A program made the translations under genes and the position numbers. Positions 16,132-25,725 of a DNA stretch of 46,376 nt are shown one piece after another. The notes under the pieces are model-generated. The model saw only the letters and a program-made list of their open reading frames with translations. It was not told the origin of the DNA and searched no databases. The stretch comes from Actinomycetota bacterium (GTDB taxonomy: Bacteria; Actinomycetota; Actinomycetes; Nanopelagicales; Nanopelagicaceae), in the NCBI GenBank assembly GCA_009726135.1, contig WLIQ01000006.1:1-46376 (forward strand), read 5' to 3'. Each line of letters begins with the position of its first letter. Positions within the stretch are counted from its first letter, which is position 1.

Positions 16132-18240
16132 GTGTTTGAGAAGCTTGGAAAGTTTATTGTTAAGCGCAGCAAGCTAGTTCTTCTTAGCTTTGTAATTGCC
16201 ACGATTGTCGCTGGCGCAGTTGGATCCTTGTCTTTTGGCCGTCTTGATTCAGGTGGCTACTCAGACCTTAATAGCGATTCTGCAAAGGCTGCTAAATATG
16301 TTGTAGATGTATTCGGTGCCGAAGAACCAGTTGCAGTGATGGTTGTGGACTCTGCAACTTCTACAATTGATGATCCAGCTGTGGCAAGTACAGCAACTGA
16401 AATTGAAAAGAAGATTCAAGGCCATAAAGGAACCTCCAAAACTTACTCCTACTGGTCAACCGGTGGATCACCAACCATGAAGTCCAAAGATGGAAAAGCA
16501 GGCTTCATCTTGGTGTATTCAGATCTTGATGCTTTTGATTGGGATGGGCTTAGCTCACTAGGAGCATCATTGCAAGAAGAGTTTGATGGTAAGTATAAGA
16601 ACGTACATATTTACGCATCTGGCGCCGGGGTGATTACATATGCAATTAACCATAAGATTGAAAAAGACTTGATTCTTGCTGAATCAATTGCCATTCCTCT
16701 TACATTTCTCCTTCTTGTCTTTGTTTTTGGTGCTCTTGTCGCATCAGCAACACCACTATTTGTTGGTGTAACAGCGATTCTTGGATCTTTCTTTATCATT
16801 TACTTATTGACGCTATTCACGAACGTCAGCGTTTTTGCTCTCAATCTCATTACAGGTCTGGGGCTAGGGCTTGGCATCGACTATGCGTTGCTCATGGTGA
16901 ATCGATTCCGCGAAGAACTTCACAACGGACATAGCGTTGAAGAATCTGTCGTCACAACTGTTGCTACAGCAGGTAAGACAGTTTTCTACTCAGGGCTTAC
17001 TGTTTTTGTCACCATGGCATCACTGCTCTTCTTCCCACTTGAGTTCTTGAAATCATTTGGTTACGCAGGTGTTGCTGTCATTACATTTGCAGTCATCGGT
17101 GCCGTGATTGCTCTTCCTGCACTACTTGCTGTGCTTGGTCAAAAAGTTGATAAGGGCGTTGTGCGAAAGAGTGCAATAACCCCTAAAGAAGATGGACGTT
17201 GGGCACATACCGCACGCAATGTTATGCAACGTCCCGTTCCAGTTGTTCTTGCTTGTTTAGTTGTTTTAGGAATATTTGCTGCACCAGTTACTAGTATTTC
17301 TTTCGCGCAGGTCGACTCCAGGGTGTTACCTGCATCAAATCCAGCTGCAATTGCATCCCAAATAGTTGACACTCGCTTTGACGGATTAATTGGAAGTCCG
17401 ATTGAAGTTGTTGTGCCAAATGGTGTTGGACGAGAAAGTGAAATTACTACTTTCTTGGATAAGGTTAAAAAGGTCGACGGAATCGTTCGAGTTGGCGCAA
17501 TTGAGACCTACAAACAAGATATTCGAGTTCAGGTTATTTCCTCAGTGCCATCTCGAAGCACTGATTCATTACAGGTCATTCACGACATTAGAAGTCTAGA
17601 AAAACCTACTGGAACACTCATTGGTGGAGCAGCAGCTGATTTCACTGACTCGCAAGATGGAATTGCTAGAACGCTACCTCTTGCTTTGGGATGGATTGCA
17701 CTTACTGTTTTGATCCTTATCTTCGTATTTACTGGTTCAATAATTTTGCCGATTAAAGCGGTAATTTTAAATGCGCTTTCATTAGTTGCCACCCTTGGTG
17801 CAATTACTTGGATATTTATCGATGGCCATTTGAAGTGGTTGGTAGGTGATTTCACAGTCACTGGAACGTTAGATACCGGTTCAGTGATTCTTGTAGCTGT
17901 AGTCGTGTTTGGACTTTCAATGGACTACGAGCTCTTCTTGCTCTCACGTATCCGTGAAGAACATTTAAGTGGCAAGAGCAATGTTGAATCAGTAGCGGTC
18001 GGTTTACAACGTTCTGCTCGAATCATCACTGCTGCTGCACTTCTGCTGGCTGTAGTTTTCGCTGCCTTTATGACAAGTGGTGTCACATCAATCAAGATGT
18101 TGGGTTTTGGAGTTTCACTGGCTGTCATCTTGGATGCAACATTAGTTCGAGCATTATTGGTACCTGCATTGATGCGCTTATTCGGTGAACGTAACTGGTG
18201 GTCTCCAAAATGGATGCAAAAATTTACTCTTAGGCACTAA
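16132..18240 (+). CDS. MMPL-family RND-type membrane transporter
   Basis: 702 aa with the two-fold RND plan: one helix, an extracytoplasmic loop, five or six helices, then the same again. Signature segments are GLGLGIDYALLMVNRFREEL (about 241-260) and FGLSMDYELFLLSRIREEHL (about 598-617), each with the Asp-Tyr pair that carries protons in MmpL proteins. The start is GTG (16132), with AAAGGAG 9 nt upstream. MmpL-like proteins export lipids or small molecules using the proton gradient; the substrate here is unknown. It is the last chromosomal gene before the tRNA-Arg island. Confidence 0.9.
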   Translation: MFEKLGKFIVKRSKLVLLSFVIATIVAGAVGSLSFGRLDSGGYSDLNSDSAKAAKYVVDVFGAEEPVAVMVVDSATSTIDDPAVASTATEIEKKIQGHKGTSKTYSYWSTGGSPTMKSKDGKAGFILVYSDLDAFDWDGLSSLGASLQEEFDGKYKNVHIYASGAGVITYAINHKIEKDLILAESIAIPLTFLLLVFVFGALVASATPLFVGVTAILGSFFIIYLLTLFTNVSVFALNLITGLGLGLGIDYALLMVNRFREELHNGHSVEESVVTTVATAGKTVFYSGLTVFVTMASLLFFPLEFLKSFGYAGVAVITFAVIGAVIALPALLAVLGQKVDKGVVRKSAITPKEDGRWAHTARNVMQRPVPVVLACLVVLGIFAAPVTSISFAQVDSRVLPASNPAAIASQIVDTRFDGLIGSPIEVVVPNGVGRESEITTFLDKVKKVDGIVRVGAIETYKQDIRVQVISSVPSRSTDSLQVIHDIRSLEKPTGTLIGGAAADFTDSQDGIARTLPLALGWIALTVLILIFVFTGSIILPIKAVILNALSLVATLGAITWIFIDGHLKWLVGDFTVTGTLDTGSVILVAVVVFGLSMDYELFLLSRIREEHLSGKSNVESVAVGLQRSARIITAAALLLAVVFAAFMTSGVTSIKMLGFGVSLAVILDATLVRALLVPALMRLFGERNWWSPKWMQKFTLRH

Positions 18241-18249
18241 TTTAAGAAC

Positions 18250-18297
18250 GTGTCCCCGGCGGGAGTTGAACCTGCGACCTACCGCTTAGGAGGCGGT
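18250..18297 (-). repeat. distal attachment site: orphan 3' fragment of tRNA-Arg
   Basis: 48 bp identical to 24348-24395. It contains tRNA nucleotides 27-73 (anticodon arm, variable loop, T-arm, 3' acceptor strand) plus one flanking base. The 5' part of the tRNA is missing, so it cannot make a working tRNA. Bases on both sides differ from the other copy, which fixes the repeat limits. Confidence 0.92.
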
Positions 18298-18401
18298 AGG
18301 AAAAACATCAATTCTTAGCTAGTTTGAATAGAAATCTTACGTTTCACGCTTAAATAGTGGCAAAAGTGAAAATCTCAATTACCACTATGTATCGCTTTGT
18401 T

Positions 18402-18477
18402 CATGGGAATCTATGGGAAAACTACCCTCACCCAAAGAATTTCTCCCCCGAAAGATAGCAGTTATGGGAATTCCCAT
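18402..18477. repeat. left-end ATGGGAA repeats, probable recombinase arm sites
   Basis: ATGGGAA occurs at 18403-18409 and 18413-18419 (10-bp phase, the second within CTATGGGAAAA). It occurs again at 18464-18470, where it forms a perfect palindrome ATGGGAATTCCCAT (18464-18477). The same CTATGGGAAAA string is found twice inside the other island end. Short repeats in helical phase beside the core site are typical arm-type sites for tyrosine integrases. The rest of 18298-18560 shows no gene. Confidence 0.6.
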
Positions 18478-18560
18478 GACTATTTATTTCTTTGTGATTT
18501 TTAGACAACGGGAATTAAAAATGCTTGGGTAAGGGCCTATCCAATAAACCTACATTGAGT

Positions 18561-19592
18561 TCACTTGTTGGAATCTGTCGATGGCCTGTCGAGCAGACGA
18601 CGTGGGTTGTGTACCAATAATTGCTGGATAACTTCCTCTGAGAAGTTGTATTCACTCTTAAGTGAAGGAACTACACGGCGTAACAGATGTTCATAACCCA
18701 TACCGCCGTAGTGTCGCAGTTGCGCTTTGGTCCAAACGTCGCAAGCGATAAGAAGGCTGGAGGCCCAACCTTCGTTGACGAGTGCCGCAAGGTGTTCAAA
18801 GCGCTCAAGGTCGCTAGGTGCTTTGAATATACCTAAATAGAATTCTTCTCCGAACGTGTCGTACTCAACCACGGCTCCAGCTTGGAGCACCGACCGGTGA
18901 TAACCGAGGTCTAGACGCTCGTCCATGTGGCTGAAGATAACGCGATCAGGTGCAACACCGTGCTCCGTGAGGAGAGAGAGGATGTCGAGTGCGTGTTCGC
19001 CTCGCGCATCAAGGTGCACATTGACTGCTGCACCGGTGTGCTGTGCGGCTATTCCAGCGGCATGCAGAACCTTTATTTCGCGAGAAGTTATGGGGCTGCC
19101 AGTACCAATTTCACCAATAAGTGCTGATTTAATCCCTGTTTCACCAACACCAATAGTGAGTTCTCTTATTAATCCGTGTGCCAACTCATCCACGGTGGAT
19201 GTATCCACGAAAGCTGGATGTGCATCATGTACGTAATAACCAGTTCCGGCCATAATGTGGAGACCTGTCCGCTCCGAGATTTCAACTAGTTGCTCGACTC
19301 TTCGTCCGAACCCCTCACTGGTCAAGTCGACGAGGCCAGTTCCTCCCATCGCAGCGAATCGATTCAGTTCGGTCACTGCAATCTCAGGATCATCGATTAT
19401 TAGGTTGTCACGAAGACTCAGCAGATTCCATCTGACAAAACCGAGGTTTTCCATGGTGACCATCGGGTCATCCGGGTAGGGCTCGCGAGGTGGAGTCAGC
19501 CAAACTGTTGCATCAACAAAGACATGCTCATGCATGCTAGTAACGCCAAGGGTGTCGGCTTCAATGGGGCCGAGAACTGTCTGTATGGGCAT
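18561..19592 (-). CDS. phosphotriesterase-family (PTER/Php-type) binuclear metal hydrolase
   Basis: 343-aa amidohydrolase-fold enzyme. All metal ligands are visible: HEH (His21, His23), bridging Glu161 in IGEIGTGSP, His193 in NVHLD, His222 in FSHMDE and Asp285 in ACDVW. Glu rather than carboxylated Lys as bridge puts it with PTER/Php-type proteins, not with true phosphotriesterases or PLL lactonases. Mammalian PTER has been reported to hydrolyse N-acetyltaurine; bacterial members are mostly uncharacterised. Cytosolic; no signal peptide. It lies 12 nt after the M24 gene and is last in the island operon. The substrate is unknown; a small N-acyl amine, ester or lactone is possible. Confidence 0.85.
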   Translation of the reverse strand: MPIQTVLGPIEADTLGVTSMHEHVFVDATVWLTPPREPYPDDPMVTMENLGFVRWNLLSLRDNLIIDDPEIAVTELNRFAAMGGTGLVDLTSEGFGRRVEQLVEISERTGLHIMAGTGYYVHDAHPAFVDTSTVDELAHGLIRELTIGVGETGIKSALIGEIGTGSPITSREIKVLHAAGIAAQHTGAAVNVHLDARGEHALDILSLLTEHGVAPDRVIFSHMDERLDLGYHRSVLQAGAVVEYDTFGEEFYLGIFKAPSDLERFEHLAALVNEGWASSLLIACDVWTKAQLRHYGGMGYEHLLRRVVPSLKSEYNFSEEVIQQLLVHNPRRLLDRPSTDSNK

Positions 19593-19604
19593 TTTTCTAT
19601 CTCT

Positions 19605-20798
19605 CTATTCGATGATTATTAATGGTTCGTCATACGCAGGTGGCACCAGTGAACGTGCACCACCCGGCTCTATAACAAAATTATCTTCAAGCTTAAGGAC
19701 ATATGTACCTTCGGCCGTTGTCACTCGTGTCTCTGGCTCTAGAGAAATTACATTTCCAATCTCGAGAACTTTGTCATCGTCCATGAGGTGACCTCGGTAA
19801 ACAGTCGGGACCTCACAGGAACGAAGGCCAATACCATGGCCCATTGAGTAAGGAGTTCCAGGCAAACCATGAGATATTAAGTAGCTATTCACCGCAGAAT
19901 CAATTAGAGAAACTCTTACTCCAGCATTAGCAATTTCTTGGCCAATGCGAAGAGCATCTTGAAGAACTTTATAAGCAGCACTTACTGTGGTGTCTGGTTC
20001 GCCAACGAAGCAAGTGCGAGTCAAGTCTGAGGCGTAGCCGCCCACTCCATAACAACCTACATCGATAAAGAATGCACCCCGTGGACCTACTTCTACCCCC
20101 TGTGGAAACCAACTTTCGGATCCTCGAACATTACACATAGAGTGCGTGAATGCTTCCGCCCCACCAGATAGTTGTCCGGCTGCAATCTGTCCAAGAATCC
20201 ATGCGTCTGTGTTGTGCTTAGAAGCCTGACTGAAAGCTTTGTGAATAGTGTCGATATTTAATTCGCCCGCCAACTCGAGAAGGCGAATCTCCACCTTCTC
20301 CTTCACTGCGCGCAATTCGAAAAGCTCTTTCTCAACGCCAACTATTTCAATGTCTGGAAACTTTTCAGTTAATCCCTGAAGTATGTTCCAGGGAATCCGA
20401 TCAAATCCCACGCGCTTTGCTCGCCCTCGAAGGAGTTCGAAACCGATATGTTCTATCCAATAGTGCGGGTGCAGCGAGGCGGGAGACCAAGAAGGCACGG
20501 GCACACGTCTCAGAATTGGTTTGTTCTGCCCATCAAGTAATTCTTCTTGATCTACATCAGGCACGAGCATTACGCCTTCTGCCTCGCGACTGAAAACTAG
20601 TGCGCACCAGTCATTAGCCTCGGAAACTAGCAAACTGCGGTAGTCGGTGGCGTAGCGAATCTGGTCGTGCCCTGTAAGAATCAGGTGATCGAGATTTAGA
20701 TTGTTCATTAACTCTACGACGCGAGAGGTTCGAGATCGTCGCATGCTCTGCAGATCAATGAGTGAAGGTTCGTTGAGACTCTTCCTGATAGAAGTCAC
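19605..20798 (-). CDS. M24 metallopeptidase (Xaa-Pro dipeptidase/aminopeptidase-like)
   Basis: 397 aa with a creatinase-type N-terminal domain (about 20-155) and a pita-bread catalytic domain (about 165-385). All five metal ligands are present: Asp246 (FFIDVG), Asp258 (YASDLTRT), His321 (GHGIG), Glu354 (SLEPE) and Glu371 (KLEDNF). It should thus be a dinuclear metal hydrolase rather than a metal-free creatinase. The start is GTG (20796-20798) without a good ribosome binding site; an internal ATG 18 codons later is an alternative. It is placed between the permease and the PTE-like enzyme, fitting cleavage of an imported dipeptide-like compound. Cytosolic. Confidence 0.87.
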   Translation of the reverse strand: MTSIRKSLNEPSLIDLQSMRRSRTSRVVELMNNLNLDHLILTGHDQIRYATDYRSLLVSEANDWCALVFSREAEGVMLVPDVDQEELLDGQNKPILRRVPVPSWSPASLHPHYWIEHIGFELLRGRAKRVGFDRIPWNILQGLTEKFPDIEIVGVEKELFELRAVKEKVEIRLLELAGELNIDTIHKAFSQASKHNTDAWILGQIAAGQLSGGAEAFTHSMCNVRGSESWFPQGVEVGPRGAFFIDVGCYGVGGYASDLTRTCFVGEPDTTVSAAYKVLQDALRIGQEIANAGVRVSLIDSAVNSYLISHGLPGTPYSMGHGIGLRSCEVPTVYRGHLMDDDKVLEIGNVISLEPETRVTTAEGTYVLKLEDNFVIEPGGARSLVPPAYDEPLIIIE

Positions 20799-20880
20799 AC
20801 TAATGACTCAAATCTATCTGGCGGTGTATTCATGACCGCCCCAGTTGTCCAGTTAAGGATCTGGCTGCGTTCACGAAGTA

Positions 20881-22293
20881 TCACTTGTGTCGTGTAGCTA
20901 GAACGCTCTTTCTAACAATCACACCTAGAACAAGCACAATAGCCCAACCTGTAAACGCGCCCCAGTTTTGCCACCATGGAATGTCTGGCGTTCTAGGCCA
21001 TAAAATGACCGGAATCATGAAAATGAGCCACAAAAGAGCGGCTGCATTCACCGACGAATGCCATCGAGGCAACTCGTTCTTATCAATTACGTTACCGCGG
21101 CGACGCGCGATCATGGTTCCCACAACTGGGAAGAAGAAGACTATGTAATATCCTGCAGTTGCCAAAGCCAGCAACATGATGTAAATGCCCGAACCAGTAA
21201 AGACGAATAACGCTGAAGAGATCACACCAGTCACTAGGACCGCGTTCACCGGCATCTGAGTATTACTCATCTTGACTAGGAAGGCCGACTTCGGGAGGTC
21301 GTTATCTCGCGCAAAAGCCCAGATCATGCGTGCCGCTGCCGCTTGGACAGCAACAAGACACGCTACGAACGCAATCGTGAAATCAAACAATACGGCATTG
21401 ACTAACCATGATGGCCAGATTGCCGACAATGTAAAGACGATAGGATCGGCGACTTTCCCAGCCACAACTTCTTGAAGGTTTGGGATAGCCAAGATAAATG
21501 CAAAGCCCGCATATGCCACAGTGATTCCGACGGCAATTAGGGATAGTAAAATTCCTCTAGGAACATCCCGGTGAGGGTTTTTAACCTCTTCTGCGATTGA
21601 GGCGGCACTGTCGAAACCAATCAGACCCCATGCGGCATAGGCCATGGCGATCACAATCGGCGCATACATTAAATGCGACCATCCAGGGAAGCTCAGCCCT
21701 TGGCTAAATACACTGAGATCGTTCTTACGATAAAAGAACAATAAAACTGTACCAAGACCCAAAGAGCCAACGACCTCAGCCCAAACACACAAGGTCACGA
21801 AGATATGCAAAACCCTCTTCCCCCAAGCGTTAGCAATCGTAGAGAACATAATCAAAACTAGAGAGGAGATGACAAGTTGAGTCTGGCTTGCCCCCTTTAT
21901 GCCAAGCAAAGGCAAAGTAAACTGTGAGGCCTGCAAGGCAATAATTGATAGAGCTACAACCATTGTCACGATGTAGATCCAGCCATGGAACCAGCCCCAT
22001 CCTTCACTGACCAGACGTCTGGACCACTGGTAGCTACTACCCTCGAAAGGCCATCGGCGAGCAAGGGGGAAGAAGCTCAGTGCAACCAATGATTGACCTA
22101 ACAGTGTGATTACGAAGCCCCACCAGAACCCAGGGCCTACTGTTGTTAGCCCCAGAGCTAGAACTCCAAAGAGGGCCACAATTGGCGAGATAAAAGCAAA
22201 ACCTAACGCGAAGGAGTTCCAGAGTGTGAGGTCGCGCTTGAGTCGCGGATCGTCCTGCTCGTTTAGGCCGGAAGAGCTTTGGTGAGTAGACAT
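20881..22293 (-). CDS. APC-superfamily amino acid/amine permease
   Basis: 470 aa with about 12 transmembrane helices. The first helix region NSFALGFAFISPIVALFGVL and the segment GLIGFDSAASIAEEVKNPHRDVPRG are characteristic of the amino acid/choline (ACT) branch, which includes GABA permeases such as yeast Uga4 and bacterial relatives. It probably imports an amino acid, amine or dipeptide-like solute by proton or sodium symport. AAGGGGAA lies about 9 nt before the ATG. First gene of the island operon; a CRP-type palindrome lies about 120 bp upstream. 82 nt separate it from the M24 gene. Confidence 0.88.
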   Translation of the reverse strand: MSTHQSSSGLNEQDDPRLKRDLTLWNSFALGFAFISPIVALFGVLALGLTTVGPGFWWGFVITLLGQSLVALSFFPLARRWPFEGSSYQWSRRLVSEGWGWFHGWIYIVTMVVALSIIALQASQFTLPLLGIKGASQTQLVISSLVLIMFSTIANAWGKRVLHIFVTLCVWAEVVGSLGLGTVLLFFYRKNDLSVFSQGLSFPGWSHLMYAPIVIAMAYAAWGLIGFDSAASIAEEVKNPHRDVPRGILLSLIAVGITVAYAGFAFILAIPNLQEVVAGKVADPIVFTLSAIWPSWLVNAVLFDFTIAFVACLVAVQAAAARMIWAFARDNDLPKSAFLVKMSNTQMPVNAVLVTGVISSALFVFTGSGIYIMLLALATAGYYIVFFFPVVGTMIARRRGNVIDKNELPRWHSSVNAAALLWLIFMIPVILWPRTPDIPWWQNWGAFTGWAIVLVLGVIVRKSVLATRHK

Positions 22294-22376
22294 TTGTTTA
22301 TTCCCCTTAATCCTGGTTTCAAGAAACTCGTTCCAACCAAAGGCTATGGATGAGCCTGTGAAATAAAACGCTTTAA

Positions 22377-22400
22377 CTATAACGCCCCACTAAGTTATAG
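22377..22400. repeat. inverted repeat CTATAAC-N10-GTTATAG
   Basis: Perfect 7-bp arms, CTATAAC (22377-22383) and GTTATAG (22394-22400), about 85-105 bp before the permease start. Read on the minus strand, TATAAC at 22399-22394 is a good -10 element, so the repeat may be an operator overlapping the permease promoter. Confidence 0.4.
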
Positions 22401-22410
22401 CAATCAAGGA

Positions 22411-22432
22411 TAATGTGATTTGCGTCACATTA
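22411..22432. promoter_or_regulatory. CRP/GlxR-type binding site
   Basis: Perfect palindrome TAATGTGA-N6-TCACATTA (spacer TTTGCG) containing the full cAMP-receptor-protein consensus TGTGA-N6-TCACA, also the GlxR consensus in actinobacteria. It lies just upstream of the proposed permease -10 element, fitting activation of the minus-strand operon. It is about 300 bp from the S12 start. Confidence 0.75.
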
Positions 22433-22696
22433 AATGTATTTTTCCTACTGGCTTATTTTCTACTCACATACGTGACCTCTACAAAGGTATTCCGCTTCGC
22501 TCCCTAGATGCCAGATCTCGCAACAAATTCATCCACTTCTCTGGATACGTGTGCGCATCTCCAAACCTACCTAATCCTTACCTATAAGCTTTCAAAAAGA
22601 ATCTCCGCAAGGCTTCGTGCATGAAATTACCTCCTGAAATTAGCGGGAATACCCAATTCAAATTGAAAAAGAATTTGTGTCCCTAACAGATAGGCA

Positions 22697-22725
22697 TTGA
22701 AAACTGCTTGATAGGCCACTAACCT
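22697..22725 (+). promoter_or_regulatory. promoter of the S12 hydrolase gene (leaderless)
   Basis: TTGAAA (22697-22702), a 17-nt spacer and TAACCT (22720-22725), then 6 nt to the ATG. Spacing is ideal for a housekeeping sigma factor, with transcription starting at about the first base of the start codon. No ribosome binding site is present, which agrees with leaderless translation. Confidence 0.6.
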
Positions 22726-22731
22726 TCTAAA

Positions 22732-24117
22732 ATGTCTCATCAAGAAATAATTCAATTTTCCTTAAATGAATTTGAAAACCTCAAGTCTGAGAAAAAAATC
22801 CCTGGTATTGCTTTTGGTTTAATGCACGACGGAAAACTTATCTATTCATCTGGATTGGGCGAAAGTGTTATTGGGAGTGGGAGTCAACCGACTTCAGATA
22901 CAGTTTTTCGCATCGCCTCTATGACTAAGAGTTTCACAGCCAAGGCCATCTTACTTTTACGCGATAGAGGCTTATTGCAACTTGACACATCAATAACTAC
23001 ATATCTTCCTTGGACTGCAACGATCGGGTTACCTGTTGATTCTGCTCCAATAACTATACGCAATCTTTTAACCATGGGGGCTGGACTTCCATACGACGAT
23101 CCATGGGGAGATAGGCAAGAAAGCTTACCGGTCTCTGATTTTGATGAAATCGTTAAAAAAGGGTTGGCATTCAATAGGAAAGTTAACACTGGATTCGAAT
23201 ATTCAAATTTGGGATATGCGCTACTTGGCAGAATCATCTCAATGGTGGCTGGAGAAGATTTTGAACAGTTTATGAAGCGAGAAATTATTGATCCATTGGA
23301 AATGAAGGCTTCGACTTACATAACAGAGGCCGTGCAAGATGAATTCCGCGCAATGGGTTATGCAAAGTTTGCTTCAGGACTAAGTCCTGAAGCACCAACT
23401 AAAAATGGTGCTTTTACCCCTATGGGTGGATTGCACAGCAGCGTGAATGATTTAGCAAAGTGGGTTTCCACATTTCAACTAAACAACAAAACAGAGGAAC
23501 AAACTCCTTATCGGTATTCTCATTCCGTAGTGGCAAAAGCACTAAATGGGCACCCAGAAAGAATAATTGTAAGTTCATACGGATTTGGATTATTTATCGA
23601 TGATGACACAGAACTTGGTCGATTTGTTTACCACTCTGGAGGTTATCCGGGTTTTGGTTCTCACATGCGATGGCATCCAGAGTCCGGTTGGGCAATCATC
23701 GCTTTAGGAAATCTGACTTATGCACCTATGAGTATTGCCTCTACAAATATCATGAATTATTGTGCTGAAATACACATGAAAACTAGTAAACCAAAGATTG
23801 ATATTGGCGCTTATACACAAGCGGCCATGATTTCTGTTAATACGCTAATAAACGATTGGGATGATTCTGTTGCAGACAAGTGGTTTGCTGTAAATATGGA
23901 TTTGGATCAACCGCGTGAGGAGCGGATTGCGGCACTAAGGATATTGACATCTGGAAATTCTAATTGGAAACCGGTGGAAGATTCACTCACTACACCCACC
24001 ATATCTTTCGCAAAATGGAAGATGGAAAACGACGGAGGCATCATTGAAGTGGAGATGCTTATGAGTCCTGAGAAATTCCCTAAGATTCAGAGATTAATTT
24101 TTTTGCCAGCCCATTGA
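22732..24117 (+). CDS. serine hydrolase of the beta-lactamase/S12 family
   Basis: 461 aa, class-C-beta-lactamase fold. The nucleophile motif SMTK (Ser63, Lys66), the second motif Y157-S-N159 and the third motif His301-Ser-Gly are in the right order and spacing. No signal peptide, so it is cytosolic and not a classical secreted beta-lactamase; relatives include D-aminopeptidases, esterases and amide hydrolases. A lipocalin-like or extra C-terminal domain (about 355-461) follows the catalytic part. It stands alone on the plus strand, divergent from the permease operon. Its AT-rich composition differs from that operon, suggesting separate acquisition. Confidence 0.88.
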   Translation: MSHQEIIQFSLNEFENLKSEKKIPGIAFGLMHDGKLIYSSGLGESVIGSGSQPTSDTVFRIASMTKSFTAKAILLLRDRGLLQLDTSITTYLPWTATIGLPVDSAPITIRNLLTMGAGLPYDDPWGDRQESLPVSDFDEIVKKGLAFNRKVNTGFEYSNLGYALLGRIISMVAGEDFEQFMKREIIDPLEMKASTYITEAVQDEFRAMGYAKFASGLSPEAPTKNGAFTPMGGLHSSVNDLAKWVSTFQLNNKTEEQTPYRYSHSVVAKALNGHPERIIVSSYGFGLFIDDDTELGRFVYHSGGYPGFGSHMRWHPESGWAIIALGNLTYAPMSIASTNIMNYCAEIHMKTSKPKIDIGAYTQAAMISVNTLINDWDDSVADKWFAVNMDLDQPREERIAALRILTSGNSNWKPVEDSLTTPTISFAKWKMENDGGIIEVEMLMSPEKFPKIQRLIFLPAH

Positions 24118-24270
24118 ATGTAGCTCTTGAATGTCGACAGTTTTGCTTTGTATTTCGTTCGTGTGTGTTCATATTATTTAACTGTGCGCGGGCAGATGAT
24201 TGGCGCACTCGATTTAGCAATAATTTATGAACATTCTGATACAACTTGGTAGAACTTGACATATTGCGGT

Positions 24271-24292
24271 CTATGGGAAAATCTATGGGAAA
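24271..24292. repeat. right-end ATGGGAA repeats, probable recombinase arm sites
   Basis: CTATGGGAAAA at 24271-24281 and again at 24283-24293 in near-tandem (12-bp period), about 55 bp inside the right attachment site. The same motif occurs at the left end. An 8-bp inverted repeat TCTTCGCG/CGCGAAGA (24295-24302, 24336-24343) lies between it and the tRNA. No gene seen in 24118-24347. Confidence 0.6.
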
Positions 24293-24347
24293 AATCTTCG
24301 CGGTTGCTTGCATTTTCAATAACTCCGTTATTTCACGCGAAGAATAA

Positions 24348-24395
24348 GTGTCCCCGGCGGGAGTTGAACCTGCGACCTACCGCTTAGGAGGCGGT
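24348..24395 (-). repeat. tRNA-proximal attachment site
   Basis: Second copy of the 48-bp repeat, forming nucleotides 27-73 of the intact tRNA-Arg plus one base. The left limit falls just outside the tRNA 3' end and the right limit at the start of the anticodon stem. Strand exchange therefore probably occurred in the anticodon arm, a common site for tyrosine integrases. Confidence 0.9.
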
Positions 24396-24421
24396 TGCTC
24401 TATCCACTGAGCTACGGGGAC
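24349..24421 (-). tRNA. tRNA-Arg(CCU)
   Basis: 73-nt cloverleaf on the minus strand: acceptor GTCCCCG/CGGGGAC, D-stem GCTC/GAGC, anticodon stem ACCGC/GCGGT with loop CTCCTAA (anticodon CCT), 5-nt variable loop, discriminator A, no encoded CCA. The T-stem GCAGG/CCCGC has one A-C mismatch (51/63), present in both copies of the attachment repeat. The 3' part was rebuilt by the island's attachment sequence, so the tRNA should still work. Confidence 0.95.
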
Positions 24422-24513
24422 TTGGACATGGACAATCTTGTCATGAATTATTGGCAGGGCTAGACTGTTAAAAACAATCGAAAAGGATGTTATTTCCTCA
24501 TGAGGGGCCAGCA

Positions 24514-25725
24514 ATGAAGGCGCTAGTAATAGGCGCGGGAGGTGTTGGCAGAGCTATTGTCAATATCGCATCACGCAAATCATTTATTTCTTCCATGGTT
24601 ATTGCAGACCGCGAACTATCGCGCGCAGAGCAAGCCGTAATCCGCGTTAAGGACTCTAGGTTTTCAGCAGCTGAAGTAAATGCTGCAGAGCTAGAAGATA
24701 TCCGTGCTCTTATTCGTAAAGTAAAACCTGATGTTGTTATTAACGCAGTGGATCCACGTTTTGTTATGCCGATTTTCTTGGCATGTGAAATTGAAAGCAC
24801 CAACTACATTGATATGGCGATGTCTTTGTCGCGCCCACATGCGCATTATCCAAACTCTGAAACTGGTGTGAAGCTTGGCGATGAACAGTTTGCCCGTGAC
24901 TGGAACTGGAAAGAGCGCGATATCTATGCCCTCGTTGGTATGGGTATTGAGCCGGGCATGAGCGATGTATTTGCGCGCTATGCCTCCGATTATCTCTTCT
25001 CAGTTATTGATTCCATCACAATTATGGATGGATCCAACTTAACCGTTGAAGGTTATGAATTTGCACCTTCATTTTCAATTTGGACAACAATTGAAGAGTG
25101 CTTGAACCCTCCAATTGTTTGGGAAGATGGCCGCGGTTGGTACACAACAGAACCATTTAGTGAGATTGAAACCTTTGATTTCCCTGAAGGAATCGGACCT
25201 GTTGAGTGCGTAAACGTCGAACATGAAGAAGTTATTTTGATCCCACAGAAAGTTGATGCCAAGAAAGTTAATTTCAAATATGGTCTTGGTGCACAGTTCA
25301 TTACGACTTTAAAAACTATTCACATGTTAGGACTAGATCGTAAAGATCACGTTGATGTCCAAGGTATTTCAGTCTCACCTCGCGACTTACTTGCGGCATC
25401 ACTTCCAGATCCAGCAACGCTTGGTTCACGCATGAAGGGAAAAACTTGTGCAGGAGCACTTGTTAAGGGCCTTGATAAAGATGGAAAGCCGTACGCTTGT
25501 TATATGTACAACGTCGTGGACAATGAATGGTCGATGAGTGAATATGGCGATCAAGCAGTTGTGTGGCAGACGGCAGTTAATCCTGTAATCGCAATGGAGT
25601 TGATCCATAAAGGCATTTGGAAACCTGAAGGTGTTGCAGGCCCAGAATGGTTTGATGCTAAGCCATTCCTTGATTCACTTGAATCCTATGGAACTGAGTG
25701 GAAAATTCGTGAAGAAAACATTTGA
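24514..25725 (+). CDS. saccharopine dehydrogenase family protein
   Basis: From the ATG at 24514 (403 aa, GAGGGG about 7 nt upstream) the protein opens with the NAD(P)-binding motif MKALVIGAGGVGRAIVNIA and continues with VINAVDPRFVMPIFLACEI and GMGIEPGMSDVFARYA, typical of Lys9/carboxynorspermidine-dehydrogenase-like reductases. An upstream in-frame ATG (24487) would add nine residues. Such enzymes join or split an amino acid and an oxo acid through a secondary amine; the substrate is unknown (lysine catabolism or polyamine synthesis are options). First gene of a unit with the GMC oxidoreductase, whose start it overlaps by 17 nt. Confidence 0.82.
   Translation: MKALVIGAGGVGRAIVNIASRKSFISSMVIADRELSRAEQAVIRVKDSRFSAAEVNAAELEDIRALIRKVKPDVVINAVDPRFVMPIFLACEIESTNYIDMAMSLSRPHAHYPNSETGVKLGDEQFARDWNWKERDIYALVGMGIEPGMSDVFARYASDYLFSVIDSITIMDGSNLTVEGYEFAPSFSIWTTIEECLNPPIVWEDGRGWYTTEPFSEIETFDFPEGIGPVECVNVEHEEVILIPQKVDAKKVNFKYGLGAQFITTLKTIHMLGLDRKDHVDVQGISVSPRDLLAASLPDPATLGSRMKGKTCAGALVKGLDKDGKPYACYMYNVVDNEWSMSEYGDQAVVWQTAVNPVIAMELIHKGIWKPEGVAGPEWFDAKPFLDSLESYGTEWKIREENI

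Follow-up and report, generated by a model that had tools for sequence, protein, structure and literature searches.

The block 18250–24395 of the window (the whole stretch of DNA that was analysed, 46,376 nt, from a genome of the Nanopelagicaceae) is probably a non-autonomous cargo island of the CIME (cis-mobilizable element) kind, which was integrated at a tRNA-Arg(CCU) gene in trans by a helper integrase. The preliminary description of this DNA stood as to the repeat, the tRNA and the acquisition; it had missed that the island carries no integrase, that conserved attachment modules lie at its termini and that it belongs to a mobile family extending over several genera. Streamlined aquatic bacteria possess few recognisable mobile elements, yet their flexible genes differ strongly, and a short searchable att signature reveals precise insertions at one tRNA gene.

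The island is bounded by a direct repeat (18250–18297 and 24348–24395, both minus strand; 48/48 identical, spacing 6098, 6.1 kb enclosed) as described previously; a perfect repeat of 48 bp cannot have arisen by chance, and no third copy was found in the own assembly with up to 3 mismatches allowed. An intact tRNA-Arg with anticodon CCT was called by both ARAGORN and Rfam at 24348–24421 (minus strand). The right copy of the core corresponds to nt 27–74 of this tRNA and thus begins at nucleotide 27 and completes the gene, both of which had been claimed. The left copy is, as had also been claimed, an orphan 3' half of tRNA-Arg(CCU), the 5' half being absent there; on the perfect repeat, the missing 5' half and the empty sites of relatives, it was taken to be the end of the original host-side attachment site (attB) that was displaced, and the intact gene to be a tRNA restored by the incoming 3' half. 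The intact tRNA at one end and the displaced tRNA fragment at the other are the features by which a tRNA-integrated genomic island is recognised.

Occupancy of the site was determined in the genus: the repeat was scanned in 135 genomes, and the surrounding loci were then compared. A locus was taken as empty when one intact tRNA-Arg followed within 80 bp of the stop codon of the MMPL gene, or of the PurU gene that comes after it in many species of the genus. Empty sites accounted for 66 of the 88 loci judgeable on both sides, and 22, the window included, were filled. The genes outside the island, an MMPL transporter on the left (16132–18240, plus strand) and a saccharopine-dehydrogenase-like gene of the carboxynorspermidine synthase family on the right (24487–25725, plus strand), are syntenic in relatives. 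Joined over one core copy, the two flanks could be aligned across the junction in 21 genomes, best in G071, the nearest relative (91.4% over 806 bp); none of the four island genes was found at this site in the other genomes of the genus whose loci were compared. The comparison from the MMPL gene to the saccharopine-dehydrogenase-like gene had been proposed beforehand as the check on acquisition, to be decided against it if every close relative had this gene content and the two repeats as well; with 66 loci holding a single intact tRNA-Arg near MMPL or PurU, the opposite was observed, and it is near certain that the 6.1 kb are acquired DNA. Integration looks recent, since the cores are identical, the arm sites are intact and the close relatives are all empty.

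Cargo of the island: an APC-family amino-acid permease (20881–22293, minus strand), an M24 metallopeptidase of the Xaa-Pro dipeptidase/aminopeptidase type (19605–20798, minus strand) and a phosphotriesterase-family amidohydrolase (PF02126; 18561–19592, minus strand; GC 51%) all run in one direction, separated by 12 and 82 bp, and the permease is the first gene of this probable operon; a serine hydrolase with the class C beta-lactamase/esterase fold (PF00144; GC 41%) lies at 22732–24117 on the plus strand. The M24 protein is nearest to Xaa-Pro dipeptidases and aminopeptidase P, and the phosphotriesterase-like protein to the phosphotriesterase-related proteins 3k2g and 9efa. The cargo may plausibly serve to take up and hydrolyse peptides or N-acyl amino acids, as would suit an oligotroph. 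The three operon genes have GC 48–51% and GC3 0.43–0.52 (permease 0.52) vs about 44% and about 0.36 in the flanks, and the serine hydrolase is host-like (GC 41%, GC3 0.34); the cargo is therefore probably a mosaic. No other copy of the M24 gene was found in 296 family genomes or in a 297-genome sample of the class, and no donor of the cargo among the latter. Relatives of the M24 gene were absent from IMG/VR and from the plasmid collection, and those of P0001 from IMG/VR; neither a packaged nor a plasmid form thus came to light.

No recombinase is encoded by the open reading frames of the island. When the two integrase types, the two excisionases and the ATPase were used as queries, no credible match to a relic was obtained (best E 0.11), and no conjugation or transfer module was found; the combination of own integrase and relaxase/transfer genes that characterises an ICE or IME is thus not present. 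The tyrosine recombinases of the own assembly are XerC, XerD and one small enzyme (L081:1220–1987), all on other contigs. The small integrase adjoins a different tRNA 3' fragment (CACCGGGTCGGGGGTTCGAGTCCCTCACCACCCAC; L081 1080–1987, contig C12) with no TGGGAAA sites near it, and this region is probably a second tRNA-targeted element of the genome.

Both ends of the island bear an attachment module composed of tandem TGGGAA sites, the palindrome TGGGAATTCCCA and tandem TCTATGGGAAAA sites. The left module (subtype W; 18298–18480, plus strand), delimited from the core flank to the palindrome by alignment with islands of three other genera (G274, G152, G253), contains a pair of putative arm-type sites, TGGGAA TCTA TGGGAAAA (18404–18421, plus strand; 10-bp period; layout kept in 10 genomes), and terminates at the palindrome TATGGGAATTCCCATG (18463–18478; TGGGAATTCCCA at 18465), where the conserved module ends and the cargo starts. 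The right pair of putative arm-type sites, twice TCTATGGGAAAA (24270–24293, plus strand; 12-bp period), recurs in G003, G026, G258 and G226 with position and period unchanged; between it and the core lies an inverted repeat, TCTTCGCG...CGCGAAGA (24295–24343), whose place is occupied by a different hairpin in G026 and G003. The 46-kb window contains exactly three copies of TCTATGGGAAAA (18410, 24270, 24282), all within the island and at most 165 bp from a core repeat; a second, partial site at 18404 forms the left tandem pair with that at 18410. In 2000 dinucleotide-preserving shuffles of the island neither the left pair, the right pair nor the palindrome arose in place (0/2000). attL and attR are thus both kept, each with putative arm sites, and TCTATGGGAAAA and TCTTTGGGAAAG are candidate arm-type sequences of an integrase.

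The core followed after 94–124 nt by tandem TGGGAA gave ten matches in four genera among the 296 family genomes (reversed control: 0); in these ten genomes the layout is found at tRNA-Arg(CCU), and the cargo is unrelated between genomes. Distances from the core are near constant (pairs at about 96–120 nt, palindrome at 168–180 nt). The right-end tandem pattern TGGGAAAN{2,3}TWTGGGAAA was found at nine places in the family genomes, eight of them at tRNA-Arg(CCU) islands. TGGGAAA pairs recurring in a conserved coding gene (G062, G063, G064, G095, G058, G078) were unrelated and were set aside; scans of the whole collection with the patterns returned mostly chance matches, just two G258 contigs being recognisably real.

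Two sequence subtypes are well sampled, A (G003, G026, G107, G143) and W (the window, G274, G152, G253). Members of each have the left module in common, with the closest agreement between arm pair and palindrome, and unrelated cargo beyond; in subtype W the modules are near identical from TTTGTTCATGGG to the palindrome and unrelated after it, that of G152 being compared only as far as its contig goes, which stops before the palindrome. G152 and G253, of different genera, share 139 of 140 bases, which marks recent movement of nutrient and defence genes across genera by a common module. The right ends of the G274, G152 and G253 islands were not found, the islands running off their contigs. Cargo elsewhere in the family: a Gabija-like pair of OLD-nuclease and UvrD-helicase genes in the subtype-A island of G107 (L104 80–3431); type I restriction-modification (HsdM, HsdS, HsdR) in a 17.9-kb relative in G226 that also has an integrase and an AlpA protein (L174 370–18222); a 715-aa protein without Pfam or PADLOC match in G003 (L106 3972–6119), the sole large gene of a 3-kb island. 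The G003 island is a second complete integrase-less one, on a single contig with identical core repeats; its xis is reduced to the first 22 codons, which lie beside the right arms. Four islands have both ends on one contig, and an integrase is present in G226 and G258 C38 and absent from G003 and the window; with two of four lacking it, integrase-based island finders would miss such insertions.

In G026 an AlpA-type excisionase and a 414-aa tyrosine integrase lie directly inside the right arms, with a TrwB-like ATPase beyond; G258 likewise has an integrase and a TrwB-like ATPase. The sole relatives of the G026 integrase in the 296 genomes are those of G258 (76% and 41% identity), G226 (41%) and G249 (54%, fragment). 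The integrases adjoin tandem TGGGAAA sites at the tRNA-Arg gene in G258 (both copies) and in G226, where the tRNA is interrupted by unresolved bases of the assembly: the 76% relative, which belongs to a different genus, has these sites and tRNA-Arg(CCU) next to it, and the 41% relatives beside such sites are those of G258 C38 and G226. The four full-length integrases all have the residues R231, H358, R361, H385 and Y395, which make up the catalytic set R..HxxR..H..Y. The N-terminal 70 residues were predicted as beta-beta-beta-alpha, a three-stranded sheet and a helix (pLDDT 78.5; the full-length model, pLDDT 34.6, was unusable). Matches to the model of this domain include AP2 and the DNA-binding domains of P4-like, Tn916 and lambda integrases at modest Z of only 3.7–6.5; 3rmp (4.5), 1bb8 (4.4) and 1z1b (3.7) are all within the range of a common arrangement.

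The location of the crossover in the anticodon arm, proposed earlier from the repeat boundary, gained independent support from the sister element in G026. Its tRNA (L103 2998–3073) is a hybrid of a host-type 5' half (GTCCCCG) and a foreign 3' half ending in CGAGGAC, with a C-A mismatch in the acceptor stem that could affect tRNA function, and the orphan copy is the host version; the foreign half matches genus g12 (G258) but for one base. The two copies agree only over a stretch holding the anticodon stem-loop, therefore strand exchange is placed there.

Proposed course of integration: a circular molecule carrying the 3' half of tRNA-Arg(CCU) would recombine with the host tRNA-Arg gene inside the anticodon arm; the exchange would restore the tRNA at 24348–24421 and push the old 3' half to 18250–18297. 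The recombinase would be a lambda-type tyrosine integrase binding the core and the flanking TGGGAAA arm sites (left pair, palindrome, right pair). Since the island holds no integrase gene, the enzyme would have been supplied in trans, to which recent integration in its absence likewise points; the helper would be an autonomous relative like those in G026, G258 and G226, which combine integrase, AlpA-type excisionase and arm sites at this tRNA. The ends would then constitute a reusable att module, and the interior would be cargo open to exchange, in the present case a serine hydrolase and a putative operon for uptake and hydrolysis of amino acids or peptides. No helper integrase with the att subtype of the window (TATGGGAAA arms) was found in the genomes searched, of which the own one is an 84% complete draft of 77 contigs, so that a helper could escape notice there. 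The W-subtype hosts G274, G152 and G253 showed XerC and XerD alone, but an integrase could sit in the unassembled part of their islands, the contigs ending inside them.

The chief alternative, rather improbable but of some weight, is that the island is a CIME in the strict sense, the stranded remainder of an autonomous element that had its own integrase and excisionase and lost them afterwards with any transfer genes. CIMEs are documented as decayed ICEs or IMEs (PMC5704250), and the 22-codon xis stub beside the right arms in G003 indicates that at least one member of the family came from an autonomous parent. In the window, however, no int, xis or ATPase relic was detected, and the pristine repeats and arm sites, with the closest relatives all empty, leave little time for so clean a loss. 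Integration by a recombinase resident in the host (XerC/XerD or the small L081 integrase) is very unlikely: these are the sole tyrosine recombinases of the own assembly, and in the W-subtype hosts Xer enzymes alone were shown; but Xer elements use dif-like sites and not tRNA cores with distant arm sites, and the small integrase is associated with its own, different tRNA fragment and no TGGGAAA sites.

An assembly chimera, or homologous exchange at the 48-bp repeat instead of site-specific integration, is the least credible reading. The assembly is a draft of many contigs and the G107 contig ends exactly at the repeat, but at each end of the island, independently of the other, the arm sites have the right orientation and spacing, in agreement with nine further genomes, and the same structure lies within a single contig in G003.

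Integration in trans may tentatively be extended for subtype W: its members might be stably integrase-less cargo islands that spread between streamlined freshwater actinobacterial genera purely in trans. Two att modules, one with core, arm pair and palindrome and the other with arm pair and core, would move as a pair, and the cargo would be swapped at the sharp palindrome boundary; this would amount to a MITE-like or CALIN-like system served by a tRNA-targeting tyrosine integrase.

Relation to known elements: a CIME keeps attL and attR and lacks integration and transfer genes (PMC5704250), and by this definition the island fits, with decay as a possible origin; it differs in standing alone, not in tandem with a helper, in the lack of decay relics, and in an att module that recurs in islands of other genera with unrelated cargo. 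In its way of working the island resembles the tycheposons of Prochlorococcus, reported also in Methylopumilus (PMC10872708), which are likewise tRNA-bounded with nutrient-related cargo in a streamlined aquatic host, whereas here no tyrosine recombinase is present and tRNA and host phylum are different. The tRNA-targeted islands of Islander (PMC4383910) share the restored tRNA at one end and the displaced fragment at the other, but autonomous members usually have an internal integrase gene, which this island lacks. As in P4-like integrase/AlpA systems, the tRNA-adjacent pair of genes in the autonomous relatives encodes a tyrosine integrase and an AlpA-type excisionase, and the modelled N-domain of that integrase resembles the P4-like attP-binding domain 3rmp (Z 4.5); the sequence is distant, and cargo and host are unrelated. 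The kind of element is known and the family new; no paper on this att-module family was found in a literature search that had most subscription journals outside its coverage.

Further observations at the same tRNA: single-gene inserts of 1.0–1.2 kb (L047 351–1435, L041 268–1510, L148 7639–8685) are bounded by 48-bp repeats or by two full tRNA copies and are without TGGGAAA arm sites; either their ends have decayed or a different mechanism was at work. In the genus, the tRNA-Arg genes at L129 1842 (G111) and L043 1444 (G031) are variants whose T-arm differs (GGCCGGAGTTGAACCGGC), and are possibly further cases of 3'-half replacement.
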